DNA from: a virus | DNA: 43,165 bases | Strand: one strand, 5' to 3' | IMG/VR virus record: IMGVR_UViG_3300005527_000096 | Span: 1-43,165 of that record | The notes under the pieces: generated by a model | Told to the model about the DNA's origin: nothing | The model's input: the letters and a program-made list of their open reading frames with translations, nothing else | The model's database searches: none | Program-made: the position numbers and the translations under genes | Shown: one piece after another, positions 8,082 through 34,400 of the stretch | How positions within the stretch are numbered: position 1 is the first letter of the stretch | How the letters are laid out: each line of letters starts with the position of its first letter

Positions 8082-8753
8082 TTAGTCTTGGTCGATCTCC
8101 TCGATGATGTAGTCTGCTGCGCCCGTTAGAACATCGAGGGCTGCCTCGAGTGCTGCCTCGTCTGTACACTTGCTGGCTGCCTCTCTTATTTGGCTGCGTA
8201 ATGCCTTCAAGGTCTCCATCCGTTCCTTGGTCTCCTCGCTGGTCTTCTCCTTGAGTACTGTCTCAAGCTCCTTTACAGCCCTCTTCAAATCTTTGTTGGT
8301 TGGGTTCTTGGCGAGGGCTGAATAGCCTTTCTCGATTCCTTGGCGTACTTGGTCAGGGCTTTTGTCTTGGTACGCTGCCAAGAGGTCTGCCTTTTTCTGC
8401 GCCCGTTCTGCTGCTCGCTGCTGGGACAATGGATTCTCGGATTCGGGTTTGATGATCTCGATCTCGAACATGTCCTCGAGATCCCCCTTGAATCGTGACC
8501 AAGCTTTATCAACGGCTGCGCTGGTCTTGCCGGGGTTCGCGCCCATCCAGCCTTCTTTCCAATCAAGCTGCGCCGTCTCGAATTGCAGCCGGGTAACCTT
8601 CTCCCCCAACATCCGGGCATAGTTGGTCAAGGTCTCGACAGCTAGGCTGTCTTTGCGTGCCCATGCTGCGCCAGCGTTCTTGGCTGCTGCGTGCTGCTCA
8701 GGGGACAGCGCGTCAATCGCGGTTGCGACTGTGTTCTTCTGTGGTGCGTTCAT
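8082..8753 (-). CDS. Hypothetical leftward early protein, paralogue 1 (223 aa)
   Basis: This hydrophilic, helix-rich protein has no recognised domain. It aligns along most of its length with the protein at 8955-9584: shared landmarks are W-x2-GW/GY, a KAWSRFK versus KAFGRFK block, an Ala/Lys-rich linker (AERAQKKADLLAAY versus AEERASKLADMLKHY), Q-x-I-x-K/QAY, AKNP, and a closing EA/EV-x-KC/ECSD(E) helix. The two are therefore ancient duplicates. Its start has GAGGAG at 7 bp spacing. It forms a single-gene unit with its own promoter, operator-like palindrome and terminator, transcribed away from the early operon. Such units are often host-takeover or regulatory genes, but nothing in the sequence proves a function. 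Confidence 0.8.
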   Translation of the reverse strand: MNAPQKNTVATAIDALSPEQHAAAKNAGAAWARKDSLAVETLTNYARMLGEKVTRLQFETAQLDWKEGWMGANPGKTSAAVDKAWSRFKGDLEDMFEIEIIKPESENPLSQQRAAERAQKKADLLAAYQDKSPDQVRQGIEKGYSALAKNPTNKDLKRAVKELETVLKEKTSEETKERMETLKALRSQIREAASKCTDEAALEAALDVLTGAADYIIEEIDQD

Positions 8754-8790: not shown

Positions 8791-8818
8791 GGACAGTCTG
8801 ACCCTTTGTCTGACTGTC
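8791..8818. promoter_or_regulatory. Palindromic element, copy A
   Basis: The copy reads GAC-AGT-CTGAC-CCTTT-GTCTG-ACT-GTC with G before it; it has one mismatch in the right inner arm (GTCTG instead of GTCAG). It sits immediately downstream of the TATAAT of the leftward promoter of the 223-aa gene, over the expected transcription start, the position of a repressor operator. Confidence 0.7.
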
Positions 8819-8825
8819 TGATGTC

Positions 8826-8856
8826 ATTATACCATTTCCCTATGATGCTAGGACAA
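8826..8856 (-). promoter_or_regulatory. Leftward promoter of the 223-aa gene, with half-palindrome over -35
   Basis: The minus strand carries a perfect TATAAT at 8831-8826. The best -35 is TTGTCC (8856-8851) at a long 19-bp spacing, so the promoter may depend on an activator. This -35 overlaps a partial copy of the palindrome (left half GAC-AAT-CTGAC at 8852-8862), and copy A covers the start site. Spacing and overlap suggest regulated expression. Confidence 0.5.
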
Positions 8857-8895
8857 TCTGACAATGTCCCCCAGCTACACCCCACCAAGGGGATG

Positions 8896-8920
8896 GGAAC
8901 GGTCATACCAACGCGGGAGC
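8896..8920. repeat. 25-bp direct repeat, copy 1
   Basis: An exact 25-bp match, in the same orientation, to 9688-9712. It starts GGAACGG and ends GCGGGAGC. Both copies lie upstream of a leftward promoter of one of the two paralogous genes, 40-65 bp from the -10. It could be an activator site or a relic of the duplication that produced the paralogues. Confidence 0.85.
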
Positions 8921-8922
8921 AC

Positions 8923-8945
8923 AAAAACCCCGAATTGCTTCGGGG
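8923..8945 (-). terminator. Rho-independent terminator of the 209-aa leftward gene
   Basis: On the minus strand a perfect 7-bp stem (CCCCGAA with TTCGGGG, 4-nt loop, 8928-8945) is followed by five T residues (8927-8923). It begins 10 bp after the stop of the gene ending at 8955 and precedes the 25-bp repeat. Confidence 0.9.
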
Positions 8946-8954
8946 TCGGCTTTG

Positions 8955-9584
8955 TTACTGGGTCACAAAACTAACTTCGTTGTCCTGACTGAGCATCTCA
9001 ACCACTAGGTCTAGCCTCGTGATGTCGGAGCATTCCCTGACCGCTTTAATGACCTCGTCACGCTTTGCCTTTAACTCGGCTTTGGATTCGGCTTCGGTGT
9101 CTTTGGTACGAGCCTTCAAAACCGTTTTTAGTACTTTCAGGATCGCGTCACTCCCCAAAGGGTTTTTAGCCTGACGCTCGTATGCCTGACTGATTAGTTG
9201 GTGCAATTGGTCGGTGCTCGTGTCCTCGTAGTGTTTGAGCATGTCGGCTAGTTTAGATGCGCGTTCCTCGGCTTTCTTAGTCGCGGCTTTACTGGTTGCC
9301 TTCGGAATTGGGATTCCATAGGTATCTACCAAACGGGTCTTAAATCTCCCGAATGCTTTATACGCGGCGTCACCCTTTGCCTTTGGTTTAACCTCTGTGT
9401 ATCCGTTTATCCACGATAGTCGCTCGGCTTCCCATACCTGATAGGTCGGCTCGGTTCCTACAGCCTCTGCGAACAATTGAAAAGACTCTGACGCATTGAC
9501 CTCTGACTGAGCAAATAACCTACCGGCATCAATTGACCTTGTCGGGGTTAGTGCTTGTGCTACAACTGTTTTTTCGTTTTGCAT
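8955..9584 (-). CDS. Hypothetical leftward early protein, paralogue 2 (209 aa)
   Basis: This is the second member of the pair described at 8082-8753. The start ATG follows GAGGAAATT. The protein is Lys/Ala/Glu-rich, mostly helical by appearance, with a conserved core from WEAERLSWINGY through KAFGRFKTRLVD and a two-helix C-terminal region ending EVSFVTQ. No Walker, HTH, nuclease or membrane motif is visible. Divergence from its paralogue is strong (only landmark residues remain), so the duplication is old or the genes arrived separately. Like its partner it is a one-gene leftward unit with promoter, palindrome and terminator. Confidence 0.8.
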   Translation of the reverse strand: MQNEKTVVAQALTPTRSIDAGRLFAQSEVNASESFQLFAEAVGTEPTYQVWEAERLSWINGYTEVKPKAKGDAAYKAFGRFKTRLVDTYGIPIPKATSKAATKKAEERASKLADMLKHYEDTSTDQLHQLISQAYERQAKNPLGSDAILKVLKTVLKARTKDTEAESKAELKAKRDEVIKAVRECSDITRLDLVVEMLSQDNEVSFVTQ

Positions 9585-9605
9585 AATTTCCTCATTGGTT
9601 AGTTA

Positions 9606-9634
9606 GGACACGCTGACCCCATGTCAGATAGTCC
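9606..9634. promoter_or_regulatory. Palindromic element, copy C
   Basis: The copy reads GAC-ACG-CTGAC-CCCAT-GTCAG-ATA-GTC, flanked by G and C to extend the dyad. It lies between the -10 of the leftward promoter (9642-9647) and the ATG of the 209-aa gene, covering the likely start site. This repeats the arrangement of copy A. Confidence 0.8.
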
Positions 9635-9641
9635 ACTTATA

Positions 9642-9669
9642 ACTATACTCTCACTAGGATCATATGCAA
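9642..9669 (-). promoter_or_regulatory. Leftward promoter of the 209-aa gene
   Basis: The minus strand reads TTGCAT (9669-9664), 16 bp, TATAGT (9647-9642). A second AT-rich hexamer TATAAG follows at 9641-9636. The 25-bp repeat lies 19 bp upstream of the -35 and palindrome copy C lies just downstream of the -10. Confidence 0.55.
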
Positions 9670-9687
9670 ATTAACTTATTGCCCCTA

Positions 9688-9712
9688 GGAACGGTCATAC
9701 CAACGCGGGAGC
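9688..9712. repeat. 25-bp direct repeat, copy 2
   Basis: This is identical to 8896-8920 over 25 bp, with unrelated flanks on both sides. It lies upstream of the second paralogue's promoter, as copy 1 lies upstream of the first. Confidence 0.85.
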
Positions 9713-9722
9713 GAAATTTTGT

Positions 9723-10212
9723 ATTGTTCGAATCGTACATAATGTTCTAGGTAATTGTTCCGTTGCAAGTCATTGATTTTTCAGCAATGTTCTAATGTTC
9801 GGACTTTTTGGCACACAAGGGTCGCCAAAATAAAATAAATCCTGAGAGAACGAGGCTCCCCGCAAGTGTTTATCGGATACATACGCAGGGGGTCACGCGT
9901 AGGCTTAATCTCTCTTCTCTTTTTTAGAACATTCAGAACATTACATCAATTTCGGTACAATGGCGTCCACAAGCCATTCTTTTGTTCGAATTTCTCTCCC
10001 TCTCCAAGAACATTGCAACCCCCATTTGTACATTACCCACAACATCCTACGAACAATCAATGACTTACAGCCGACACAGCGCCTTGCAAACTGTTTCCTA
10101 ACTTGACTTTGTAAACTACCTATGCTATAATAAGAGAGTGGGAATTCGCCTATTTCGCATTGTTCTAATTTCAAATGTTCTAAGAACATTGCACCCACAA
10201 AACCCGAACATT
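9723..10212. repeat. Iteron-like array of AWTGTTC / GAACAWT heptamers
   Basis: Thirteen exact copies of the heptamer or its complement, plus one variant, occur in 490 bp: forward at 9723, 9741, 9754, 9786, 9794, 10159 and 10174 (and variant TTTGTTC at 9981), reverse at 9927, 9936, 10008, 10051, 10184 and 10206. By chance about 0.1 would be expected. The copies at 10174-10190 form a perfect palindrome AATGTTC-TAA-GAACATT. A 7-bp inverted repeat TTTTGGC/GCCAAAA at 9806-9830 is followed by an A/T-rich run. No credible gene overlaps. The layout suits a replication origin or a multi-operator control region. Confidence 0.7.
10103..10131 (+). promoter_or_regulatory. Strong rightward early promoter
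   Basis: TTGACT at 10103-10108 is separated by 17 bp from a perfect TATAAT at 10126-10131. Transcription would start near 10138 and give a leader of about 130 nt containing the heptamer palindrome and palindromic element copy D before the first gene at 10271. It most likely drives the 10271-17006 operon. Confidence 0.8.
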
Positions 10213-10233
10213 CTGACACTTTGTCAGTTTGTC
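10207..10233. promoter_or_regulatory. Palindromic element, copy D
   Basis: The copy reads AAC-ATT-CTGAC-ACTTT-GTCAG-TTT-GTC, with one mismatch in the left outer arm. It lies in the leader downstream of the strong early promoter and overlaps the last heptamer of the array, so the two putative binding systems meet here. Confidence 0.75.
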
Positions 10234-10270
10234 GTAATTACTAACCAACCAAAGAGGACTGTATCTACCT

Positions 10271-10525
10271 ATGAACCTATACAAACGATTACGAGCACGC
10301 CGTACCAACGGCTACTGCACCAAGTGTCATGTCAACGGCATTGGCAAAAAGCGTGCTGCTTACGGGCATCTCATCTGCAAACCATGCGGTGAGGTCAAAG
10401 CCAAGGCCGACAGGAAGTCGTGGTGCGTGCTCACACTACACAAGCAGGGGCCGATGTTCTTCACTCCTGAGTACGCTAGGACAGCAGCCGTAGGCGCTAA
10501 CAACAAGGGAGGTATTGTTCGATGA
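10271..10525 (+). CDS. Small zinc-ribbon-like protein (84 aa)
   Basis: This is the first gene of the rightward early operon. Two CxxC pairs, C16/C19 and C36/C39, sit in a basic context (NLYKRLRARR at the N-terminus), the layout of a small zinc ribbon. The remainder is basic and lacks other motifs. AGAGGA lies 12 bp upstream of the ATG, a little far. The stop overlaps the next start (ATGA). A nucleic-acid-binding early regulator is possible, but nothing beyond the zinc-ribbon pattern supports it. Confidence 0.65.
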   Translation: MNLYKRLRARRTNGYCTKCHVNGIGKKRAAYGHLICKPCGEVKAKADRKSWCVLTLHKQGPMFFTPEYARTAAVGANNKGGIVR

Positions 10526-10794
10526 ATAAGCCAAGAAAGATCAGCAAGGAAGAGTGGATGAAGTATTGCGACAACCTGACAGATGGTCAGAATGTCGGTG
10601 CGGTGGATGCCCTGATCAACGCTGCAAACCCATATATCTTCAACCCAAAGCGAGAGGGATGGGATCTGCGGTGGGAGATTGACCGGCTTGGAAAGATGCT
10701 AGAGAGCAGGGACAAAGAGATTGGCAGTCTGCGGTTCGACATCGCTGTACTCAAAGCCGAACTCAACGCAACGAGGGGGAGGCAAAATGGCTGA
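10522..10794 (+). CDS. Hypothetical early protein (90 aa)
   Basis: This 90-residue gene overlaps the previous stop by 4 bp and has GGGAGGT upstream. The C-terminal half (about residues 50-85) is a charged heptad-like helix, probably a short coiled coil, suggesting oligomerisation. The N-terminal half contains the segment encoded by palindromic element copy E. Family unknown. Confidence 0.6.
   Translation: MNKPRKISKEEWMKYCDNLTDGQNVGAVDALINAANPYIFNPKREGWDLRWEIDRLGKMLESRDKEIGSLRFDIAVLKAELNATRGRQNG
10570..10596. repeat. Palindromic element, copy E (inside a gene)
   Basis: GAC-AAC-CTGAC-AGATG-GTCAG-AAT-GTC lies within the 90-aa gene, in frame as D-N-L-T-D-G-Q-N-V. The outer C/G flanks extend the dyad. 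Confidence 0.75.
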
Positions 10795-10900
10795 GATCGC
10801 CGAGGTTCTGCGTGCCTTGAACGGGGCACTTGGTCTGATCTGTATTGCGTTCTGCGTGTACTTTTTGGCTTGCATCATATCGGGAGGGGATGACAAATGA
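10787..10900 (+). CDS. Small membrane protein (37 aa)
   Basis: ATG at 10787 follows AGGGGGAGG at good spacing and overlaps the upstream stop by 8 bp; its own stop overlaps the next ATG (ATGA). Residues about 12-32 are a single hydrophobic segment (GALGLICIAFCVYFLACIIS) flanked by an acidic N-terminus and a charged tail GGDDK. This is a plausible one-pass inner-membrane peptide. The tight coupling on both sides supports a real gene despite its size. Confidence 0.65.
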   Translation: MAEIAEVLRALNGALGLICIAFCVYFLACIISGGDDK

Positions 10901-11088
10901 GGAACCCAACAGCGATGAGTGACGCTGAGTTACTCATGACCCAAGGGTTGTACAAGGAACTGATATCAAAAGGGGTGCGGGATGAAATTTATATCTCGCT
11001 TTTAGAGAAAGAGATAGTTAAGAGGGTCGAGATGGGTACTTGGCGTGGCGTGATAAAAAAGGGGGTGACAAGTGAAGGGACTGTTTAA
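10897..11088 (+). CDS. Hypothetical early protein (63 aa)
   Basis: This 63-residue gene starts in the ATGA overlap, with GGGAGGGGA upstream. It is mostly helical and charged, with no membrane segment or motif. A small cytoplasmic early protein of unknown function. Confidence 0.55.
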   Translation: MRNPTAMSDAELLMTQGLYKELISKGVRDEIYISLLEKEIVKRVEMGTWRGVIKKGVTSEGTV

Positions 11089-11236
11089 GCGCACCTATAT
11101 GTGTGGCATAGGCGGTATGAAGTGCCCATGTTGCGGTAAGCGCAAGGATCCAAGAGCACGACGGTTATACCATCGGCAAGCCAAACGACGGTTAGCCGAG
11201 CACATTAAACAATTGGAGAAATCAGATGAAAACTAA
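11072..11236 (+). CDS. Small basic cysteine-rich protein (54 aa)
   Basis: Translation would begin at GTG 11072, inside the end of the preceding gene. The product has C11 and a K-C-P-C-C-G knuckle at 17-22, then a strongly Arg/Lys-rich helix (RARRLYHRQAKRRLAEHI). A metal-binding knuckle plus a basic helix suggests nucleic acid binding. Upstream GGGGGTGA could serve as ribosome site. The stop overlaps the next gene by 11 bp. Confidence 0.5.
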   Translation: MKGLFKRTYMCGIGGMKCPCCGKRKDPRARRLYHRQAKRRLAEHIKQLEKSDEN

Positions 11237-11354
11237 TTGGTGGGTTGACTCAGGCATGGCTGCTCAGGCTGCCCAAGAGTTAGTGTGGTTCGTAGTAATA
11301 GTGGTTGTTGGTATCGGTATAGTAATTTGGCTAGATATGAGAAAGGATAAATAA
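11226..11354 (+). CDS. Small membrane protein (42 aa)
   Basis: The ATG at 11226 overlaps the previous gene and has GGAG upstream. Residues about 19-37 (LVWFVVIVVVGIGIVIWL) are a clear transmembrane helix, with a polar N-terminus and a positively charged end DMRKDK, predicting an outside-in orientation. It is the second one-pass membrane peptide in this early block; the function is unknown. Confidence 0.65.
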   Translation: MKTNWWVDSGMAAQAAQELVWFVVIVVVGIGIVIWLDMRKDK

Positions 11355-11355
11355 C

Positions 11356-12348
11356 ATGACTTGGGGAAGAACTAGTTTGCCGGACAATCTGCCGGAGTTA
11401 GAGAACTATGCGGATGCTCTGTATCGGTATAGCAAGACCGAGCCTCTGCGTGCGGGGAAGGACAAGGGGCTTGTGCCGTTGGGTTGGAACCGGCGGTACA
11501 AGCGCAGTCAGATACTCAAGGTTGAAACCCTGCAGGGCAACGCCATTTTCTGCAGATTCCATAGAACCGATGTCGTTAAGTTTTACGAGAACGGCATGGT
11601 GGAGTTTGGGGTTGGTGGATGGGACTCGCCCACAACGCTTATGTTTTTGCAGGGTGTTTTTGGTATGGCTAAGTTTGCTAGGTACAAGGGCAAGATTTAC
11701 TACAAGCAATTGAGTACCGGCAAATTCTTCCTTATTGGTAAAAATGGTCTGCGGATTGATGAAACCGGCACGCCCATAGACCCGACACCCGAGGTTGCCA
11801 AGGTATTGAACCGAGCGAGGTGGAAGGATCTTTTGCAGAAACTTAAGCCGTTCTCCGTATACGCATCTGATATGTCGAAACTTCTAGAGCCTAAATCAGG
11901 ACATGAAATGTCGGGAGAGTTTGATGCCTTGGTGCGAACCTATGGAGAAGAGTATTGGCGCGGGCTTCTCCCCAAAGTCCAACCTAAATCGGCTAGTAGA
12001 TTGGGGATTCCGTACTTGCCTATTTCTGCAAGGGAGATTCGGTACAACCGAAACAACATCGCGCAGTCGCGGACTGAGTTTATCAACCGAGTCTTGGAAG
12101 CATCGCAGACAAACGATGCCGAGAAAATGTATCCGCTTCTTTTTACGATACAAGCGAGTGCATCAGAGCAACGGTGGACAGGCAACGGCTATGTGTCCGA
12201 GTGTAGCCCTGACCGAGTTAGGAAGTATCTGATGGAGTTATTGAAGTTAGAGTTTTGTGAAGGCCTATTTGATGATGTTGTTCAACCATTGGGGGAATTC
12301 GTAGCCGATAGCAATGCAAAGTATTTTGTCAACCGAAAGACAACCTGA
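11356..12348 (+). CDS. Hypothetical protein upstream of MoxR ATPase (330 aa)
   Basis: This is a 330-residue soluble protein with no motif I can name. It starts 2 bp after the previous stop. The region 50-130 is rich in aromatic residues and Gly (FYENGMVEFGVGGWDSP, FARYKGKIYYKQ), suggesting a beta-rich fold; the C-terminal half looks helical. Its stop codon lies inside palindromic element copy F, just before the ATPase gene. Co-transcription suggests it is an accessory or client of the MoxR/VWA pair. Confidence 0.65.
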   Translation: MTWGRTSLPDNLPELENYADALYRYSKTEPLRAGKDKGLVPLGWNRRYKRSQILKVETLQGNAIFCRFHRTDVVKFYENGMVEFGVGGWDSPTTLMFLQGVFGMAKFARYKGKIYYKQLSTGKFFLIGKNGLRIDETGTPIDPTPEVAKVLNRARWKDLLQKLKPFSVYASDMSKLLEPKSGHEMSGEFDALVRTYGEEYWRGLLPKVQPKSASRLGIPYLPISAREIRYNRNNIAQSRTEFINRVLEASQTNDAEKMYPLLFTIQASASEQRWTGNGYVSECSPDRVRKYLMELLKLEFCEGLFDDVVQPLGEFVADSNAKYFVNRKTT

Positions 12349-12365
12349 CATCCCGTCAGAATGTC
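12339..12365. promoter_or_regulatory. Palindromic element, copy F (spans a stop codon)
   Basis: The copy reads GAC-AAC-CTGAC-ATCCC-GTCAG-AAT-GTC. The TGA of the 330-aa gene is inside the left inner arm, and the ATPase ATG is 35 bp downstream. Confidence 0.8.
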
Positions 12366-12399
12366 GCAATCAAATCATTTAAATCAAGAGGAAATTATT

Positions 12400-13461
12400 A
12401 TGGAAATTCGTATGACATCAGAAGTATCTCTAGCAGAAGCCGAAGAATCTATCATTGCTTTTGGCAACGAGAATGCGGTGCATTTGGTAGGTGAGCCTGG
12501 AGTTGGTAAGACCGCGATGTTCGAGCGTATCGTAGAGCGCACCGGCTACAAGGGTGTGTACATGGATGTGCCGAATCTAGAGTTGGGCGAGATTGGCATA
12601 CCGATGCCGAACCATGAGACTAAGACAACGAGCCTGTACCCCAACGACGCATGGGGGTTCCACAAGTCTGAGCCTATGGTGATCTTCTTAGATGAGTTTA
12701 CTAAACCATCTAGCCAAGCGGTGCAGAACACCTTGCATCCCCTGCTCAACGAGAGGCGGATTGCTAACTTTAAACTGCATCCCGACACCATCGTGATAAC
12801 GGCGGGTAACAACTCAAGCGACGGGGTGGGCGATAACTTAAAGGCACACTCGCTAAACCGCATTACTGTGATGCCGGTACGCAAGCCAACTGCAGAGGAA
12901 TGGTTGGAGTGGGGTAGTCAGGGTGGGATCGCTCCCGAGATGTTGGCATGGGTCAAGGCTTATCCGCATGCTATGGCATCCTACCTAGATCCATCACAGG
13001 CTGACAATCCGTACATCTTCAATCCTAAGTTCCCGAAACGGTCATTCTTCTCGCCACGCTCAGGGCATCGTGCGTCAAACATCATCAAGAAACGCGACAA
13101 GATTTCCAAGAACGCTTTGATTGTTGGCTTGGTTGGCACGATTGGTGAATCTGCAGCGAGGGATCTGACCGCGTATGTCGATGTTGCTGATAGTCTACCA
13201 ACATGGGAACAAGTGATGAATGACCCTGCCAACGCACAAGTCCCGACTTCCCCTGCTGCTCTATGCATCATGGCTTACGGCGCAATTCAACGGGTTGACC
13301 GAGCCAACATCAGCAAGTGGTTCACTTACCTGAAGCGCACGCCGACTGAGTTACAGAGTGTGTTCTGCTTGTCTGCTACTAAGCACAGCGAGAAGAAGCA
13401 AGTGCTTATGACGAGTGGCGCATTTGTCGATTGGATGCGTGAGCATCAGTACTTGTTCTAA
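12400..13461 (+). CDS. MoxR-type AAA+ ATPase (353 aa)
   Basis: Walker A GEPGVGKT is at residues 31-38, Walker B VIFLDEF at 94-100, a sensor-1 region TAGNNSSD at 134-141, and LLNERR at 115-120 as a candidate Arg finger region. The whole layout (substrate loop after Walker A, N-T-L-H-P-L-L-N-E-R) is that of MoxR/RavA-type AAA+ proteins, which work as chaperones or remodelling motors with VWA-domain partners. The start chosen is ATG 12400, with AGAGGAAA upstream; an earlier in-frame ATG at 12361 lies in palindrome copy F and has no ribosome site. The partner VWA protein is 0.36 kb downstream. Confidence 0.85.
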   Translation: MEIRMTSEVSLAEAEESIIAFGNENAVHLVGEPGVGKTAMFERIVERTGYKGVYMDVPNLELGEIGIPMPNHETKTTSLYPNDAWGFHKSEPMVIFLDEFTKPSSQAVQNTLHPLLNERRIANFKLHPDTIVITAGNNSSDGVGDNLKAHSLNRITVMPVRKPTAEEWLEWGSQGGIAPEMLAWVKAYPHAMASYLDPSQADNPYIFNPKFPKRSFFSPRSGHRASNIIKKRDKISKNALIVGLVGTIGESAARDLTAYVDVADSLPTWEQVMNDPANAQVPTSPAALCIMAYGAIQRVDRANISKWFTYLKRTPTELQSVFCLSATKHSEKKQVLMTSGAFVDWMREHQYLF

Positions 13462-13463
13462 TC

Positions 13464-13658
13464 ATGGCTATCGAGTATGTGCTATATCAAGGCGATGTAT
13501 GGGCTTTGTACAGACAAGATCACTTTGGTGACGACACTCTGTGGTTTGTTAGTGCAATCAATACCAAAGCGATATGGAATCGTTGGGTTCCCGCCAAAGA
13601 CTGCATCGTACTTGACCCTGCATTGAATGTTTTATTTGAAAGGAAAGAAAATGGTTGA
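13464..13658 (+). CDS. Small hypothetical protein (64 aa)
   Basis: A 64-residue protein lies between the ATPase and the VWA gene, 2 bp after the ATPase stop. It is aromatic-rich (three Trp) and looks like a small beta-type domain. No family is recognised. Its end overlaps the next gene by 8 bp. Confidence 0.55.
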   Translation: MAIEYVLYQGDVWALYRQDHFGDDTLWFVSAINTKAIWNRWVPAKDCIVLDPALNVLFERKENG

Positions 13659-13827
13659 AATTACTACGCTGTTTGCAACGCTATCGATGTTCTTAGCGTG
13701 GCGTCTATATGTTGTTAGCAAAAGGTTTGACATGGTAGAGACTATGCTACGAGGAATCGTATCGGGAAGAGTTGTAATAACCCGCACCGAAGATGGTGTA
13801 GAAATGGAGTTGAAAGATAATGGCTAA
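13651..13827 (+). CDS. Small membrane-anchored protein (58 aa)
   Basis: The start chosen is ATG 13651 (MVEITTLFA), preceded by AAGGAAAG; an upstream in-frame Met would sit deep inside the previous gene. Residues 5-21 form a hydrophobic segment (TTLFATLSMFLAWRLYVV) followed by a basic stretch and a polar tail, so it is probably a one-pass membrane protein with a cytoplasmic tail. It overlaps the VWA gene by 8 bp, implying that the MoxR/VWA system could have a membrane-linked component. Confidence 0.55.
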   Translation: MVEITTLFATLSMFLAWRLYVVSKRFDMVETMLRGIVSGRVVITRTEDGVEMELKDNG

Positions 13828-15067
13828 ACTAACTGCAGAGCAACGCATTGAGCGCACTCATGTGCAATTGATGCGGGAGAAAAACTTCTGCCTATTCTCA
13901 GGCGTGTTTATGATTGGCAAGGTAACCATCTCTGACAAAGTGCCTACTGCACGCACAGACGGGCGCAATGTCGAGTATGGTCGTGCATTTGTGGATAGGA
14001 TAAACGACAAACAGTTGGCTTTCCTAGTAATCCATGAAGCCATGCACAAGGCATATCGGCACATGATGGTTTGGAAGAACATTGCCAAAGAGAACGCACG
14101 CTTGGCAAACATGGCGATGGACTATGTGATTAACTTACAGATCCAAGACTATGACCCACAGCGCATCACAGTCGAGATGCCTCAAGATGAGTTAGGTAAT
14201 CCCCTTGGTCTTATCGATGAGAAGTATCGTGGTATGGATACCATGCAAGTCTACCAAATCCTAAAGAAGGAATGTAGTGATGGAGGTGGTAAAGGTGGTG
14301 ATAAAGGTAAAGGTAATGGACAACCTGACAATTCGTCAGGTGGTCAAGGTGGTGACCCCCAAGAGTTTGACGAGCATGATTGGGAAGGCGCATCTGATAT
14401 GTCTGAAGAAGATGAGCAAGAACTTGGTAAAGAGATTGACCATGCCTTGCGTGAGGGTGCGATCCTTGCCGGTAAGATGAAAGGCAATGTGCCAAGGGGC
14501 ATCGAAGAACTACTGCATCCCAAGGTAGATTGGAAAGAAGCCCTGCGTGATTTTGTGAAGGCGCATACCAAAGGCTTGGATGAATCGACATGGCGCAGAC
14601 CAAATCGTAGGTATCTTGGTGTGGACATCATCATGCCATCAACGATTGGGTTCAAAGCCGAGCGCATATCTATCGGGACTGACACATCGGGTTCGATTGG
14701 TGGAGAGATCCTTGGTAGGTTTCTAGGCGAAGCAAAACTTATCTGCGACGATGTTGAGCCTGAGATCATCGACATGATGTATTGGGACACCCATGTGGCA
14801 CGACATGAAATCTATGCGGGTGCGGAAGTCAGCAACTTTGTCAACTCAACTAAACCTGCGGGGGGTGGTGGGACAGACCCAGACTGTGTTCCTAATTTCC
14901 TATTAAAGAAGGGAATCAAACCACAATGCATCGTGATGTTGACTGACGGGGTGTTCTTTGGTCACGAGACTACGAAGTGGGAAGAACTTGGTGTGCCTGT
15001 GTTGTGGTGCGTGGTAGGCAACAATGAGTTTAAGCCCAAGGTCGGGCAAGCCGTTTGTGTTGAATAA
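13820..15067 (+). CDS. VWA-like protein with metallopeptidase-type N-domain (415 aa)
   Basis: The N-terminal domain carries HEAMH at residues 72-76, the zincin signature HExxH, in the context VIHEAMHKAYRHM. A Gly/Lys/Asp-rich linker spans about 155-180. The C-terminal domain has the VWA metal site: D-T-S-G-S near residue 288 and T-D-G near 376. This two-part layout matches the DUF2201 family (putative metallopeptidase domain followed by a VWA-like domain), whose genes are often paired with MoxR ATPases. The start overlaps the previous gene by 8 bp. Probable role: substrate-recognition or protease partner of the ATPase. Whether the HExxH is catalytic is unknown. Confidence 0.8.
   Translation: MAKLTAEQRIERTHVQLMREKNFCLFSGVFMIGKVTISDKVPTARTDGRNVEYGRAFVDRINDKQLAFLVIHEAMHKAYRHMMVWKNIAKENARLANMAMDYVINLQIQDYDPQRITVEMPQDELGNPLGLIDEKYRGMDTMQVYQILKKECSDGGGKGGDKGKGNGQPDNSSGGQGGDPQEFDEHDWEGASDMSEEDEQELGKEIDHALREGAILAGKMKGNVPRGIEELLHPKVDWKEALRDFVKAHTKGLDESTWRRPNRRYLGVDIIMPSTIGFKAERISIGTDTSGSIGGEILGRFLGEAKLICDDVEPEIIDMMYWDTHVARHEIYAGAEVSNFVNSTKPAGGGGTDPDCVPNFLLKKGIKPQCIVMLTDGVFFGHETTKWEELGVPVLWCVVGNNEFKPKVGQAVCVE
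14319..14345. repeat. Palindromic element, copy G (inside the VWA gene)
   Basis: GAC-AAC-CTGAC-AATTC-GTCAG-GTG-GTC is located in the flexible linker of the VWA protein and read as Q-P-D-N-S-S-G-G-Q. It uses a different reading frame from copies E and H, so conservation is of DNA rather than peptide. Confidence 0.75.
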
Positions 15068-15077
15068 GGAGAGTGAT

Positions 15078-15254
15078 ATGAAACTAGGAAGCCTGAAGTA
15101 CAACACTAAAACAGAAGAGGGAGAAGTAAAAATAGATTGGACTCAAATGCCCGAAGATGTTGTTGGGCTAGATCTGTTGTCTGATTGGATTGCAGACTTA
15201 ACGAAGATATACAACCGAGAATTAAATAATGTTTTTTCCAAGAAAGGAAAGTGA
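15078..15254 (+). CDS. Small acidic protein (58 aa)
   Basis: ATG 15078 (MKLGSLKYN) follows a strong AAGGAGA. The earlier in-frame Met at 15024 is inside the VWA gene and is not favoured. The 58-residue product is acidic with two Trp residues and a VVGLDLLSDWIADL helix. It is probably a small soluble adaptor or unrelated early protein; function unknown. Confidence 0.55.
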   Translation: MKLGSLKYNTKTEEGEVKIDWTQMPEDVVGLDLLSDWIADLTKIYNRELNNVFSKKGK

Positions 15255-15255
15255 A

Positions 15256-16122
15256 ATGACCTACGCACCATTTAACCTAAGCACAAGCGCCATGCTTGTA
15301 GAACTAAACATCAGCAATTGGACTGCTAGGAAACTAGACAAGAAGGTTTCCGAGGAAGTCGATGCAAGCAAGGCAACCAAGACCCGCGCAGGGAACTACC
15401 ACAAGAACTTACTTGCCGGTAGCCAAGCCCTTGATGCGGTGATTAAGTACACCAACAACGCACGCCTGTGGCATCACAAGCAGACGCTACCTTGGAGCGA
15501 TTCGGGTTCGCGCATCATCACGATGGAGAACTTCTTGGACTACAAGGCGCAACTAAGCGAGTGCGAAAATAATTACAACCGCTTGGTTAACAACTTCCTA
15601 GTAGCCTACCCAACGCTAATTAGTGCAGCAGCGTTCCAACTTGGTGATCTATTTGATAGGAACGAGTACCCCGAACCCGACTTGATTGCCAAAAAGTTTC
15701 GGTTTAGTTATCTGTTCTCTCCCCTACCCAACGCGGGAGACTTCAGGGTAGACATTGGCGAGCAGGCTGCGAAGGAATTGGTAGACCAATACGAAAACAC
15801 TTTCAACAACCGAGTACAGGATGCGATGAAGGATATATGGGACAGGGTTCACGACTGTCTGACACATATGTCAGATCGTCTTGCTGATAAAGAGGATGGG
15901 GAGCGCAAAGGCTTTCACAAAACCCTGCTGTCCAATGCGTCGGAACTAATTGACCTGATGCAGAAACTCAACATCACTAAAGATCCTAAGTTAGAGGCTG
16001 CTCGTAAGGATCTTTCTCAGGCAATCCTTGGGGTAGAGATCGATGAGTTGAAGGAAAGCACCCATGTGCGTAAGCATGTGAAGAGTCAGGTCGATGAGAT
16101 CTTAGGTAAATTTGATTGGTAA
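15256..16122 (+). CDS. Hypothetical helical protein of the MoxR/VWA cassette (288 aa)
   Basis: The start chosen is ATG 15256 (MTYAPFNLS), with AAGGAAAG upstream. The protein is almost all helical, with an SWxxRKLDKKV-like N-terminus (NWTARKLDKKVSEEV), a GNYHKNLLAGSQALD stretch and a C-terminal charged helix. Proteins of this look occur beside MoxR/VWA pairs in other phages, some annotated as DUF3150; I cannot confirm that match. The cassette order AAA+, VWA, helical protein is consistent. Palindromic element copy H lies in the gene. Confidence 0.6.
   Translation: MTYAPFNLSTSAMLVELNISNWTARKLDKKVSEEVDASKATKTRAGNYHKNLLAGSQALDAVIKYTNNARLWHHKQTLPWSDSGSRIITMENFLDYKAQLSECENNYNRLVNNFLVAYPTLISAAAFQLGDLFDRNEYPEPDLIAKKFRFSYLFSPLPNAGDFRVDIGEQAAKELVDQYENTFNNRVQDAMKDIWDRVHDCLTHMSDRLADKEDGERKGFHKTLLSNASELIDLMQKLNITKDPKLEAARKDLSQAILGVEIDELKESTHVRKHVKSQVDEILGKFDW
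15853..15880. repeat. Palindromic element, copy H (inside a gene)
   Basis: GAC-TGT-CTGAC-ACATAT-GTCAG-ATC-GTC has a 6-bp spacer, one more than the other copies. It is read in frame as D-C-L-T-H-M-S-D-R. Confidence 0.7.
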
Positions 16123-16145
16123 CCACAAAGGGATAGGTAACTACT

Positions 16146-17006
16146 ATGATACACAAAGGTGAGAAATTTAAAGGCAACGAGGTTTGTCCTGAGTTGGAAA
16201 TGCTAGTGCAGCAGTTGTTTGCTGTGATGCCGAATCTAGAGTTTTACGCTACCAACGCTGCCAACCTAGGATCAATTGGGGACGCCCGAAAGATCAATGT
16301 GTTTGATGTATTTAGCGGAGATCAGAAACTTGGTGTAGTAAGTTGGTATGAGAGTTACTCTAGAAGTAAGGGGCATTATTTTTCATACAGGATCTACTCT
16401 AGGAAGATTAGGAAAGAGCGGGGGGATGCCCATCTGAAAATGACGGGCAGCCTAAAGTCTGCGCTAAAGATTGCGGGGGAGGTATTTGTCAAAGATGCCC
16501 CGAATGTCTTGGCAGAAAAGTTTTATGAGGCGATGCGGTCAGAAATGAGTGGTCTAATCTACCATGCATCAAACGACATAGAGCATCGGTGCAGACCTTT
16601 TTTCCAAACGGCGTTTGCCTATACAGTTAGCGTAATACAGGGAAGCCCCGTGCCCATAGATGCAAAACTTTTGCAAGAGGTAACAAGCCCAAGGTTTGAA
16701 GAAGCGCAAAACACTTGCCGAATAGCAAAATCGGTAGGTAATGCCTTGTCGTCTCGGGAAGGTGTAATTGTCTATGTTGATAGGGAAGAGAAACTAACCG
16801 TGGTGGACTTGCAAACATATACGATTAGTAAGTTGGAGTCTACCTACGACTTGCCCAAGAACTACCAAGAAAAGTTTACTATCTTGAAAGTCATGGAGGA
16901 CAATCAACCAATCGAAGGGACAGGCATCAAGATGAAGGTATCTGTCGATGATATGAAGTTACATCTTTTCTATCTTGTCTCAGGAAATGTCATAGTAACT
17001 CACTAG
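16146..17006 (+). CDS. Hypothetical protein, last gene of the early operon (286 aa)
   Basis: This is a 286-residue soluble protein with no recognised motif. Its N-terminal half contains a beta-like stretch (KINVFDVFSGDQKLGVVSW) and a tract rich in Ser/Tyr/Arg; the middle is helical and the end again beta-like (IKMKVSVDDMKLHLFYLV). It closes the MoxR/VWA operon 29 bp before the terminator. There is no clear ribosome site beyond GGTAAC; ATG 16146 is the first in-frame start. Confidence 0.65.
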   Translation: MIHKGEKFKGNEVCPELEMLVQQLFAVMPNLEFYATNAANLGSIGDARKINVFDVFSGDQKLGVVSWYESYSRSKGHYFSYRIYSRKIRKERGDAHLKMTGSLKSALKIAGEVFVKDAPNVLAEKFYEAMRSEMSGLIYHASNDIEHRCRPFFQTAFAYTVSVIQGSPVPIDAKLLQEVTSPRFEEAQNTCRIAKSVGNALSSREGVIVYVDREEKLTVVDLQTYTISKLESTYDLPKNYQEKFTILKVMEDNQPIEGTGIKMKVSVDDMKLHLFYLVSGNVIVTH

Positions 17007-17034
17007 CAATCTAGTAGTTTAGTCTTATCTAGCA

Positions 17035-17069
17035 GGACAATCTGACCAAGCGTCAGGTTGTCCTTTTTT
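17035..17069 (+). terminator. Terminator formed by palindromic element copy I
   Basis: The element GAC-AAT-CTGAC-CAAGC-GTCAG-GTT-GTC, extended by an outer G-C pair, can fold into a 12-bp stem with one G-U pair and a 5-nt loop, and is followed at once by six T residues. It is a classic rho-independent terminator for the early operon. It shows the dispersed palindrome doubling as an RNA hairpin. The dyad occupies 17036-17062. Confidence 0.85.
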
Positions 17070-17175: not shown

Positions 17176-17499
17176 ATGGGGTTTACACCCGAAGGCAAGG
17201 TCAAGGCGCGAATCCGTCGCATCTTGGAAATCAATAAGGTCTATCACTTCATGCCCGCAACGGGCGGTTATGGTCGAAGTGGCGTTCCCGACATCATTGG
17301 CTGCTACCGAGGTTACTTCTTTGCCATCGAGTGCAAGGCGGGGAACAAGCGCCCTACCGCGTTACAGGAAAAAGAACTCCAACGGATTCGTGACTCAGGC
17401 GGTCAGGTTTTTGTCATCAACGAAGAGAATGTGAAGGACATCGAGATTTGGCTAAATATGATGACCGTTCCTGAGAAAAGGATGGGCAGCGATGCGTGA
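17176..17499 (+). CDS. VRR-NUC nuclease (107 aa)
   Basis: The motifs SGVPDIIG (D39) and FFAIECKAG (E52, K54) form the PD-(D/E)xK centre of the VRR-NUC family, with Q64 following in TALQEKEL. These small phage nucleases are related to Holliday-junction-resolving or flap-type nucleases. Length is typical for the single-domain phage version. GAGGA lies upstream of the ATG. It begins the replication operon after the terminator and overlaps the next gene by 8 bp. A substrate, probably branched DNA, is inferred from family. Confidence 0.88.
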   Translation: MGFTPEGKVKARIRRILEINKVYHFMPATGGYGRSGVPDIIGCYRGYFFAIECKAGNKRPTALQEKELQRIRDSGGQVFVINEENVKDIEIWLNMMTVPEKRMGSDA

Positions 17500-28458: not shown

Positions 28459-28485
28459 CCCCCGCCCAGCGCGGGGGTCTTTTTT
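28459..28485 (+). terminator. Rho-independent terminator of the replication operon
   Basis: A 7-bp stem CCCCCGC/GCGGGGG with a 5-nt loop (28459-28477) is followed by T-C-T6. The T run overlaps the stop codon of the convergent giant gene. It ends transcription from the replication genes. Confidence 0.9.
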
Positions 28486-31400
28486 ACTCTCTGCCGTATT
28501 CCAACATTGGGGAAACCCGTGGGCGTAGTTTCTTCTGAATCTGCGCACCAAACACTTCGGCTTCCATTTGGTTCTGTCCCCGACGCTTGAAAGAGTCGAT
28601 TACATCTTTTGGTTCAACTGCGTACTCTGGGTACTTTTGATTAAACTTTTGGATGTTTTCAATGGTGTCTGCATAAGCATCGGTATTGCCGCGCTCCATC
28701 CATAGTCTATTCATTAGGGTATTACGCTTGTCAATTACTTTTTGCTCGTAGGTCTTAGCCTCAATGGCTGCTTTCTGTTTTTGAGCAAGGCGCTCAGGCT
28801 GCAGTCCAATTGATTGTATTGCAAGTTCCCAAGCCGAAAAGTTATCTACTAGCGTAATTCCAGATCTAGTTTTAGCCCCCTCATCAGCCATGCGATAGGC
28901 AGCAGCAGGTTTAGACACAATTGCCGGAGCGGCTTTCTCAAAGGCACGTTGGTATTGTCCTTGCTCCATTAATTCGATAGCCTCGGCCCAATTTACCCCT
29001 AACCCAACTACAGGGCCAGCATTGGCAATTACACTCTCCACCACATTCTCTCGGGTATCGGTAGAGAACCGAGGATCACGCAACCATAAATTTACGGGGT
29101 CAAGGCTGACACGCTCACTCAGTGAGCCACCAGTTGCAACTGAAGCCGGGCCACGGACAACTGCCTCCATAGTTCCACGGCCAGCCTTACGGGCAGTATC
29201 TTCACCCATGCCCATCTTCTTGTATATGTCGGCTACATAACCACCAAGTTCGACTTCCATGTAGTTCTTAAACCAGTTATCCCAGTCAAAGAACTCATCG
29301 TCGTCATCATTTGCCGCTAATTTAACTATGTTACCAATTAACAAAGTAAAAAACGGTAAAGCCTCTGCACCGCCAAGCAAGAATGTCACACCTAAAATAC
29401 CAGCCAACCGACGACGCCCTTCTTTGTAAGTCTCTCGGCGCTGAGCATCGGCTTCGGCAATCCGCTGGTCTATGATGTTCTGCGGAATCTTGTCTTCGAT
29501 CATCTGCCGCCGAAACTCTTTTATCTCAGCTTTACGGAATGGGGCGGCAAGAGTAAAGTAAAAGTTACGGGCTACGACGTAAGTAGCTAACACAGAGTAT
29601 TGTTTAAATTTAGTCAACACCGAAAGCAGCGGGGGCGTAAAGTACCGTGGCTTCATCTGACGAGTAAAGTCACCCAAAGACAGGCCAGCAATATCTTTAG
29701 CTTCCGTAATTGCTAACTCAAAGGCTTCGTCTGGTGTATTTGGTATTGGGTTACCTGCATTATCACGCTGGATAACGCCACGTAAATTTTTCTTAGGTTC
29801 ATTTAAGAACTTGTCGTAGGCTAACTCAAACACAGACAGTAGCGTTACTTCGCGGTTTAGCCTTTCAGACTGATGAAACAATGCAGCAATAGTCCGTTTT
29901 ACTGTGTTGTACCGCCCTGTATAAAGCTCTGATGGTCGACCACCAATGTCCATAATGTCATTGGTCTGCGAGATATTGATATCGTTATCTTCAATAAATC
30001 GGTCTGCCGCTCGTTGCATCAATGGGTCTAAGTTGCCGCCTTCTACAATCGACGGGAACTCCATCTGCATAATTTGTCCTTTAAACGCCGGACTAATTGT
30101 ACGTTTCGGCATTGTGGCTGTGTACCGACCAAGATTTTTAAGCATTACAGCATTTGCTTTAGCATATCCATATCGGCCACCAATATAAGGCATTGTGATC
30201 GCAGCCATACCTAAAAGGTTTAGCATAGCCGAGAACGGCGCAGACAGCATAAAATAAAACGTAGCATCTGATAGTTTGCCTGCTACTACCGCAGACATGC
30301 TGGTATCTTCGTTGCTTAGAATTGTCGGCGTGCGCTTCTCTACTTCCTTGATGTAATCGTCGTAGACATCCGAGTTAGGTAAATTTTTGACGTATTCCTT
30401 GGCATTAATTAAGTTATTAATAAATCTTTCTGAATATTTAAACCGCGACTGTTGATAAGCAGTATGTACAGCCGTAGTAGCAAAAACACGGATCATATCT
30501 TCACTAGCACCTTGAATTGACTGCCGGTTGATAAACATTTTCCGAACACTTTGCTGGGGGAGCAAAATATAAATTAACTGATTAAGACTTTCTTTAAGTT
30601 CTTTCTTTGTATTTTCTACAGCAAATACTTTTTCTACTTCTTCTTGGGTTGGGATTTGGCCCATTTGTTTAGTTAGAGCTTTTTCAATTTCTTGATACTC
30701 TTTTTGAGTAGGTTTAGTTATGGCGCCTACAGAGTCTATAATATCTTGAACGTCTTTAAGAACTTGAGTCGAACTAGCATTTTGATTGTATAGCTCTGAG
30801 ATGCCGTTACCTTTGCGCATGGTTTCGGCTAAGTTTTGCTGCTGTGCGTTGCCATTTGATAGCTGTCTTTTACGCTTACGAAACGCTAACTCTCTACCCA
30901 ATACAGTTTCAAACTCATAGAACTCTTTAAAGTTGCCTTTGCCGACTTGGAACCAATAGTTACCAAAACGACGTAGGGGGAAGTAAGGTGCGACTAACTT
31001 ATCACGACCAAACTTATCATTGATTTCTTTAATAACCTTTTGACGCTCGGCTTTGGGCAACTGCAACGCACGCTTCTTCATCTCCGAAACCATTGTATTA
31101 ATGGAGTCGGCGTAAAAATCTCTTACACGGCGATAAATAGTTTTAAACTCAGGATTTAGTCCATCCCAAGCTGCTTGCATTGCTGGGTTTAAAGAACCTG
31201 CTTGTGCTGTATCTGGATCAATCCCTCGGATAGTAGACTCCAACATAATTCGACCCATGAGCCGAGACTGTTTCGGATAACGTGCTTGCAAGCGAGTCCA
31301 TTCGGCTAAAATGTCTTTAGCCTTGGTCATTGTGCGGTTCCGATCAGCAATCATCTGCTCAATAATTCGGATAGCACCGCTAATCTGAGGGAACTTAGTC

Positions 31401-34400
31401 TTGGTTAGGTCATCAATTTGACGTAAGTTAGAAAAACCAAGAATAGACCGACGGAATATAGTATTGCCTGCATCCCACATTGGCGCAAGAATATCAGAAC
31501 GTAATTTATCCCATGTTTCGTGCCCTTTAATAGCACTTTCAATTTCACCAACAAGTTTTACTGCGACTTGTTCTGCAGAACGCCATGTTGTTGAAATTGG
31601 CCCCTGAATACGTTTACCTTTTGGGGCGAATCGAGCACCTGCCGCTGTGGGGGTACGGGTGCGCACTGCCGAGAACAACTGTGTAGCCGTAGCCATAGCG
31701 TTACTAGCAAGGTTATCTATGCCAACCATTTGATAAATTGCACGGACTAGGCGTGTAAAGAACGGCATCTTAGCCGGTTTGTACATCATCTTTCTAAGTC
31801 GGTCTTGGAATGACTTATTAGTAAAGACCTCAGATACAAACTCGTGGATATCAGTTAGACCATACAAGTCCAGCGGAATATTAGCAACTGCATACTCATA
31901 CATCTTTTGGAGTTCTTCACGAGCAGCACGCTGCCCTTCCGTAAGCGTATTGGGGTCGGCGTTAAGGATAGCCTCAGTAGCCGCGTGCAGTACTTCGTGT
32001 AAGAAGACGTCGTTTGTAGAGTTATCAAGGTCTATCGTAATAGCATCGAATGCCGGGTAGTAAGCACCGGCAACCTCCAACCCACGGATGTTGTCTTCAA
32101 AGGCTTTGTTAACATCGGTAAATTCTGCAATTACCGGCTGCATGTTATAGCGAGGAGAGCGTAGTTCTTTTATACCTCTATAGACTTTTTCAAGGTTTTC
32201 ATCCCGGTCATAGTTTTCAAAATATTTGTTATACAAATCCGGGTAGGTAAGCTGAACGTAATTAAACATTCGCTTCTGTTGATGATGTGTTTTTAAGTCA
32301 ATCTGGCGACGGGTTAAGTCTCGAGCGCTGTTGAAGCTAATCGTAGTTGGTAGGTCTAACGCTGCTAGTTTTGCGGCTAGTTCTTTGTATAGCGGATTAG
32401 TAAGCCGAGTTGAGAGTACCTCAAGAGCACGCTTTAAATTGCCTTTGGCTATCTCATCGGCAACTGCAGGGGCAATATTTCGGGGCTTAGCAAGTCGATT
32501 TATTACTTGGTCTTCGATGCTTCCCGGCGTAGTTTGCCCAGAAAATCTGGCACGCTCGCGCTCTTCTGCAAGGTATTCAGGGCTAAGTTCAACTCCTCCA
32601 GATACTCCGGGTTCGCCTGCTGCTGTTCCCCCAAATCTCTCCACGCTGTCAGCACGGCGTTCATTTCTCCTTTGGTAGGAGCCAGAATCTTGGAAGCGTT
32701 TTCCACGAGGTTTAGCGTTTGCATCTGTATTTACCTTTCGAATAAATTCAAAAATATTTTTATTATCACGTAAAATTTTAAATACACGACGTTTAATATC
32801 ACTTATTGTAGTGTCGCCAAATTCAAGTTCTTGACCTTCCATCCTATACGTAATTCGCTGCATCTCAGCAGGGAAATCGGCGTTGTGGCTACGCACTTTA
32901 TGATGAGCAAGTTCATGGATCATTGTCCCCACTAACCCAGCAGCGGCATCACCCATTTTTTCTGCTTCGGTTACAGCCGGATTTATATACGAACCGTTAA
33001 AAGGCAATCGAATGCTTACGCCTCGATACTCTGTGTCAAAACTTATGCCAATAGCCTCGTTGCGAAGGTCATCGTACCCCATAAGGTCGGCAACATAAGA
33101 TCTAAGTTTTTGGAACTCATCACCGATTTCGTATATGAACTTGTCAAAACGTTGACCAAATTTGTCTCGGGCCATTTCAACTAAAGATGAACCCTTAACA
33201 TTTGTTATCTTACGTTCAATTTCAACTTTTTTAGATTCCCATTCAGTATCGGTAAGTTTATTGTCATACCAATCAGACCTAGCATCTTCCAGTTCTTTTT
33301 TAAGTTTCTTAATTTCTTCTTGATCTGGAAGTTCGACGTTATCGTGCAACATAACACGTTTAGCATCAACGTTGGCTTGATCAATCTTAAACTCATCAAG
33401 GTTAATTCTAGAATTCTTAAGGTCATCTTGAGACAGTTCAGGGATAACCCGACCTTTAACAATTAAGCGGCCTTCTTTAACCTCAATGACATCGCCTTCA
33501 GAGATGTCAGAAGCAACTTTTACAATCCCAGCATCGCCTTTAGGAGCAAGTTCTTCTGGTGCAGTTGCTTTAATAGTTCCTCTGTCGTCATACAGATACT
33601 GTATTGACCCAAAGTTTTTAGCGTCATTCCCTAAATCAACAGCCCCATAAACTAAGTTTAAATAACTAGTTAACTGCTCAAACCCTTTTTCCGTCGTTGG
33701 CGAAAACCGTTGCCGATTTAAATCAAACGGATAATTAGAATCTTCTGGCTTTACATTTTTATTAGGTGATACGTCAAGATAAAAATTTCTTGGCACTATT
33801 TTAGCATCGAAGCCCGTACCTACTGCAATCTTCCCATCAAACTGCCACAATCCATTAGAGAGTATGTGCAGGTTATCGCTGTACATATACCGTTGAGGGT
33901 TTTTCTGAACATAAATTCGTGCAGTACCCCAATCAAACTTAACGTCAGCAAATTGAGTGTAGCTGTCATACGGAAATTGATCCCCTATGCGAACAGTATC
34001 ACCGTTAAAAGAAACAGAAATATCTGCAAATAACGGGCTTTTTTCTAAAACTGCGTATCCAAACTCGCTATCGGGGATTTTGATAGCAACGTCTTCCCCA
34101 GTAGAAGAATCCTTGTACGACTCTGGTACAACAACTTCGGCAAAAGTGCCGTGCCCATCCGGAAACATTTGAAGGTATTGAGGGGGTATCTGATCGCCTT
34201 TGTACACCCGAACATCAGGCGCAAGGTTAGGATCATCCATCGCCTCTTCAAGTTCTGACCCCGTACTTTCCAAAACACTTAGCACACCATCACGGTACGT
34301 AACTACTTTAATACGCTCGTTATTAAACAAAAACTGCATCTTGGCAATACCCAAACCGCCAGAATCTCGAGTACCTTCTTTTTTAGTACCAGCAATAGTT

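Follow-up and report, generated by a model that had tools for sequence, protein, structure and literature searches.

A 27-base dyad, GACA-N3-TGAC-N5-GTCA-N3-TGTC, recurs eight times in the early region of the viral genome catalogued as IMG/VR virus record IMGVR_UViG_3300005527_000096, with all copies lying within positions 8792-17062 of the 43,165 bases analysed (hereafter the window). Judged from its sequence, the array is probably a set of operators at which an early-gene repressor controls its own synthesis and also blocks elongation, much as at stoperators. The repressor would be drawn from a protein family represented in the window by two leftward genes whose products are named P0001 and P0002. 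In relatives that carry a different version of this family, the inner bases of most sites differ accordingly, and this points to a DNA-binding regulator of a new, self-regulating kind.

A scan of the whole window with the pattern GACA-N2-CTGAC / GTCAG-N2-TGTC, allowing a spacer of 4-7 bases and at most 4 mismatches in 18 positions, returned exactly eight copies (A and C to I, Table 1), compared with 0-1 in Markov shuffles. The original prediction had listed eight copies and a half copy (B, at 8852), and all of them were present, except that the first starts at 8792 rather than 8791; the inner palindrome CTGAC-N5-GTCAG was exact in six of the eight, as it had been reported. One more exact inner match, at position 732, has no outer GACA/TGTC arms (GTACGACTGAC...GTCAGACCAAG) and does not belong to the array. 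The element proved longer than first described: across relatives the outer GACA/TGTC varies least, followed by the inner TGAC/GTCA.

To place the array in a wider context, about 90 related loci were gathered from IMG/VR contigs by searches with the VWA protein encoded in the early region and with its alignment, and 1.34 Mb was probed. When the inner sequence was ignored, GACA-N19-TGTC occurred 331 times, compared with about 15 occurrences for most other spacings; the 161 occurrences at spacing 11 (GACA-N11-TGTC) arise mostly because this pattern is embedded in the same 27-base element. These uncultured water-borne phages carry 5-11 copies per locus in the early genes only, and in the long contigs (48-70 kb) the true copies all fall within a single early stretch of about 9 kb, so that the predicted confinement to the early region applies to the relatives as well as to the window. 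Despite differing inner sequences, the copies occupy corresponding positions, namely the leaders of the P0001/P0002-family genes, the stretch before the AAA ATPase gene, the VWA linker, and the gap between gene 16146 and that of VRR-Nuc (the label used here for an endonuclease-like protein). These positions are conserved across genomes with about 55-60% protein identity, and conservation at the same positions in related phages, on which the earlier proposal had been made to depend, was found when checked. The VWA copy is read in one frame in TGAC-like genomes (peptide GQPDNSSGG) and in another in CTAG and CCGY genomes (DNPSPSRNV or DKTAPHGNV), demonstrating that the DNA and not the peptide is conserved.

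The inner tetramer is specific to the lineage, and the outer GACA is nearly constant. Besides the TGAC type of the window, TTAC (loci L014 and L015), TGAG-like (L026 and L027), TTTC-like (L048 and L051), CTAG (L071, L077 and L078) and CCGY (L070, L075 and L076) classes were distinguished, and a CCGY class with AACA/TGTT outer arms was seen in L068 and at most sites of L072 and L074.

Among ten close genomes, the identity of the regulator tracks the site class and not the relatedness of the genomes. L075 and L077 are 97.8% identical in the VWA protein and 98.7% in the AAA protein, yet their regulators are 32% identical and all their sites are of the CCGY and CTAG types, respectively; the comparison of L076 with L077 gave the same pattern. 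L071 and L078, with 78% identity in VWA and 63% in the regulators, are both CTAG. Over 6.2 kb, L073 and L072 share 99.95% identity, yet the L073 regulator is of the CTAG type (87% identical to that of L078). It took the place of the CCGY regulator and brought its own CTAG leader site, and the five other sites remain of the CCGY type. In L079 the upstream sites are CCGY and the downstream sites CTAG. L073 and L079 are natural recombinants, in which the regulator or the upstream sites belong to one class and the remaining sites to another, and their patterns indicate that the gene travels with its own operator and that mosaic genomes can have mismatched sites.

The paralogues P0001 and P0002 are encoded by genes that both carry a dyad where their transcription probably begins; as originally predicted, copies A and C span the likely start sites of the two leftward promoters. 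A profile of the two proteins and their homologues retrieved a single rightward homologue in CTAG and CCGY genomes with expectation (E) values below 1e-45, where direct tblastn mostly failed. The family was found in the site-bearing genomes whose contig extends to that locus and in none of the 17 site-less relatives, several of which are 39-64 kb long. A dyad lies at or just upstream of the start of 60 of the 70 family genes (1.5% in shuffles), and in many genomes the leader copy starts 5-8 nucleotides (nt) past a TATAAT-like -10 and therefore spans about +1 to +27.

The AlphaFold2 model of P0002, made from 58 sequences, comprised eight helices with a mean predicted local distance difference test score (pLDDT) of 84.6 and a predicted template-modelling score (pTM) of 0.50. 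Comparison with PDB gave no informative match, the best Z score of 5.3 not being meaningful for a helical model, and none in BFVD had an E value below 0.001; this failure to identify the fold does not make it a new one. Residues 48-92 show a similarity of about 0.70 within classes and 0.21 between the CTAG and CCGY classes, and for the basic residues 93-118 the values are 0.46-0.47 within and 0.44 between. It may be inferred that the constant part of the protein reads the constant GACA and the variable part reads the inner tetramer.

A second repeat, GGAACGGTCATACCAACGCGGGAGC, is found at 8896-8920 and 9688-9712, upstream of both leftward regulator promoters and exact in both. In TGAC-like relatives it recurs, little altered, upstream of most of the P0001/P0002 homologues, and a third, partial copy with the core GGAACGGTCAT lies on the reverse strand at 17461-17471, near the end of the VRR-Nuc gene. 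This element is possibly an activator site of the regulator genes.

Hairpins formed by the sense-strand RNA predict that G.U mismatches are commoner than A.C mismatches, but among these sites, which are related and not independent, A.C exceeded G.U at the inner arms (38 vs 17) and at the outer arms (22 vs 4). At 293 distinct sites other than copy I, the two spacer positions adjoining the outer arms pair at the shuffled level (117 vs 120 and 108 vs 110), and the third pairs above expectation (185 vs 144), an excess inflated because this position belongs to the class-specific inner arm in several lineages and the classes were pooled. A first within-genome shuffle displayed excess pairing at the inner arms in a set including about 15 chance sites, which by estimate were enough to cause it; a later curated set was picked partly for symmetry, so its pairing excess is not evidence. 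An apparent pairing deficit at position 6-22 vanished after the terminator copies were separated. RNA hairpins were rejected for all copies but I on the basis of the G.U/A.C counts, the within-genome shuffles and the spacer pairing, and by the same measures these repeats are DNA sites. Mixed half-sites, in which TGAC is combined with TTAC, are kept in L046 and L064; they would break a stem but would suit a dimer accepting either half. No Rfam match was obtained in the window at gathering thresholds.

Copy I stands apart. It is followed by a T-run in 34 of 36 distinct sequences, compared with just 23-24 of the 293 other sites, and all three of its spacer positions can pair in 24 of the 36 (4.6 expected by shuffling). 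Its G+C-containing stem has been maintained by compensatory changes. This pattern marks copy I as an intrinsic terminator that is conserved and selected for RNA pairing, and as the sole copy evolved as a hairpin. Both halves of the earlier interpretation, a dyad protein site rather than an RNA hairpin and a terminator at copy I, were therefore upheld.

From the computed sites, their confinement and conserved positions, their DNA-level nature and the coupling of class to family, we infer direct binding, dimerisation, repression and roadblocking. A protein of the P0001/P0002 family, probably as a dimer, would read the 27-bp dyad through its near-constant outer GACA/TGTC and its exchangeable inner half-sites (TGAC in the window). 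On its own one or two promoters the protein would sit at about +1 to +27 and limit its own synthesis, and the copies at about +1 of these promoters suggest such autorepression. Bound in the leader and every 0.4-2 kb within the rightward early operon, it would act as a roadblock to elongating RNA polymerase; leader and intragenic copies remote from promoters suggest this by analogy with mycobacteriophage stoperators. The operon would end at copy I, both site and terminator, and the net effect would be a delayed shut-off of the early genes. A broader and more tentative version, which we rate at slightly below even odds, is that a previously undescribed helical regulator family with two-part site recognition (near-constant outer and exchangeable inner tetramers) controls early transcription from the whole array, intragenic copies included, and that recombination swapped the regulator and the matching inner letters changed array-wide, giving heterotypic phages within one close group.

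Several points weigh against a repressor of this kind. No DNA-binding domain is recognisable in the family, for which Pfam, NCBIfam, PHROG, PDB and BFVD all failed to give a match of weight; when it was considered as a helix-turn-helix (HTH) family, no sequence-profile match was obtained and the helical P0002 model had no close fold match. P0001 is acidic (isoelectric point 5.2), although a charge of about +8 lies on residues 61-118 of P0002. The five CCGY sites beside the CTAG-type regulator of L073 show that the match between regulator and site is not obligatory, and the promoter-distant sites show only that a roadblock is possible. The sites are also not fully symmetric, loop base 12 being A-rich in the transcribed direction, and in L022 the inner arms differ from copy to copy yet mostly stay complementary, which a hairpin fits better.

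The last two features are what would favour RNA hairpins on the early mRNA bound by an RNA-binding protein, an explanation that we consider improbable: A.C mismatches are commoner than G.U, the spacers adjoining the outer arms pair at chance save in the terminator copy, where RNA pairing is selected, L046 and L064 retain mismatched stems, and most sites of one genome switch together, which structure alone does not need. The same protein family might bind the sites and instead activate or modify elongation, as a DNA-loaded antiterminator or processivity factor that is loaded anew at points along the operon. The sites lie downstream of the main promoter without overlapping it, recur along the transcript and end at a terminator, as this would have it; however, autorepression typically involves sites like those at about +1 of the regulator's own promoters, and we know of no DNA-loaded antiterminator that is reloaded inside genes, so this alternative appears unlikely, if somewhat less so than RNA hairpins. 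As improbable as the hairpins is a role in DNA organisation (as a centromere-like array, a silencing array or a means of protecting the early region) with secondary effects on transcription. The similar number and positions of copies across genomes and the intragenic copies agree with it, but the early promoters have copies of their own, most regulator genes have a leader copy, and a ParA-like partner was not noticed. Chance or passive repeats, like repetitive extragenic palindromic (REP) sequences or miniature inverted-repeat transposable elements (MITEs), have nothing in their favour but repetitiveness itself and can be practically dismissed: shuffles gave 0-1 copies, positions are kept across diverged genomes, and the class switches with a regulator swap.

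The original prediction had read the copies as operators of a phage regulator and proposed the 84-amino-acid (aa) HTH protein P0003 (25055-25309) as that regulator. The operator part of this proposal is supported for sites acting as DNA, copy I being a terminator as well; the choice of protein is not. P0003 is a real HTH_3-type protein, and the inner dyad with its N5 has the geometry of a lambda-type operator, but the recognition helix VSRMT[I/V]YKWF is the same in TGAC, CCGY, CTAG and TTTC genomes, indicating that the protein does not read the inner bases, and a homologue is also present in the site-less L095 contig. P0003 was rejected as the reader of the sites for the invariance of its helix across classes, and operators of this protein seem very unlikely. 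Its gene adjoins the primase gene. Of the 41 related contigs searched, 30 had it, with hardly any variation in the recognition helix; the product may be a replication or regulatory partner with some other site.

Lambda-type CI/Cro operators are few clustered promoter sites bound by HTH proteins. The array resembles them in having dyad arms about one helical turn apart (N5 between the inner arms), but with the outer GACA arms its site reaches 27 bp, and some of its copies are intragenic. In Cluster A mycobacteriophages such as L5 and Bxb1, a repressor bound to stoperators away from promoters blocks elongation (PMC6550527); these 13-bp sites of the Rep repressor are oriented with transcription and spread genome-wide at 20-30 per genome in temperate phages (PMC6550527). 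As with stoperators, one putative repressor site is repeated many times, partly at promoters but mostly within transcription units, where copies of the array lie between and inside genes, and site specificity diverges together with the putative repressor, site class tracking the P0001/P0002 family. Unlike the short and asymmetric stoperators, the present site is a 27-bp inverted dyad, near-symmetric save for spacer and loop biases, with 5-11 copies per locus in the early region only and one doubling as a terminator. Moreover, the protein family has no known fold, and no integrase was found among the open reading frames scanned in the window, a possibly incomplete contig. By this comparison the array would function in the manner of stoperators without belonging to that system. 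The C1 repressor of phage P1 has 22 asymmetric 17-bp operators over the P1 genome (PMC8546580); both arrays would be dispersed operators of one phage repressor that also acts on its own promoters, but the sequences are unrelated and the array here is symmetric. The Kpn2I C protein is reported to be a regulator that forms an elongation roadblock on its own gene (PMC6237814), a case of one locus and of the C-protein family, in contrast to the present array over an operon and its unrelated protein.

Table 1. Dyad copies, main early promoter and candidate regulator genes in the window
Feature	Positions	Strand	Context
Copy A, dyad GACAGTCAGACAAAGGGTCAGACTGTC	8792..8818	-	Leader of leftward gene 8082-8753; begins 7 nt past the -10 (TATAAT, 8831-8826)
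Half copy B, GACAATCTGACAATGTC	8852..8868	.	Upstream of the -10 of the promoter of leftward gene 8082-8753
Copy C, dyad	9607..9633	-	Leader of leftward gene 8955-9584, directly past the -10 (promoter-like TTTGCA-17-TATAGT, 9670-9642)
Copy D, dyad	10207..10233	+	Leader of main rightward early transcript; about 75 nt separate it from the -10 upstream
Copy E, dyad	10570..10596	+	Close to start of gene 10522-10794
Copy F, dyad	12339..12365	+	Between gene 11356-12348 and MoxR/AAA ATPase gene (likely start 12400); position conserved
Copy G, dyad	14319..14345	+	Within glycine-rich linker of DUF2201/VWA gene; conserved in 45 distinct sequences
Copy H, dyad, 6-base spacer	15853..15880	+	Within gene 15229-16122
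Copy I, dyad, also intrinsic terminator	17036..17062	+	After gene 16146-17006; stem then TTTTTT
Main rightward early promoter, TTGACT-17-TATAAT	10103..10131	+	11/12 matches, TG before the -10
Candidate regulator, paralogue 1 (P0001)	8082..8753	-	223 aa, no known family
Candidate regulator, paralogue 2 (P0002)	8955..9584	-	209 aa, all-helical AlphaFold2 model

The rightward early genes of the window include those of a MoxR-type AAA ATPase, a DUF2201/VWA protein, VRR-Nuc, DNA polymerase A, an SNF2-like helicase and a DUF927 primase, and the terminase, portal and other structural genes run leftward. Named phages are distant, the closest terminase among them being only 56% identical. Megablast of the 8-18 kb region against named phages and tblastn of three family members gave no match, the regulator family had none in 50,697 phage records, and the array was not found in the 50 kb scanned of each of the named phages nearest by terminase (HTVC027P, 023Pt_psg01, DSL-LC04, HTVC023P and Pag-Yong1). 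Searches of open-access papers turned up no account of this array.

Other elements accompany the array. Positions 9720-10212, between the divergent early promoters, hold a cluster of GAACATT/AATGTTC and GAACAAT/ATTGTTC motifs in both orientations, within which a 24-nt repeat is inverted (9759/10051); the cluster resembles either an origin of the iteron type or a second group of operators. In many relatives (L028, L018, L022, L046 and L064), the stretch of about 70 nt from the early promoter to copy D contains a similar G+C-rich, hairpin-like sequence that was not seen in the window and may be a regulatory RNA leader. Farther along, 28484-36700 encodes a 2,738-aa polyvalent protein with a match to GHKL/HSP90-type ATPases and a large-polyvalent-protein domain, LPD39.

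If the proposed control of the early array is correct, it would add a regulator family without a match of weight in PHROGs, Pfam or NCBIfam. Phage pairs that are near-identical outside the regulator and its sites would constitute a natural experiment on the joint change of specificity of an operator array and its repressor, in which the residues reading the inner bases would become directly testable. The effect of a roadblock array within an operon would likewise become testable in phages that show no signs of lysogeny.

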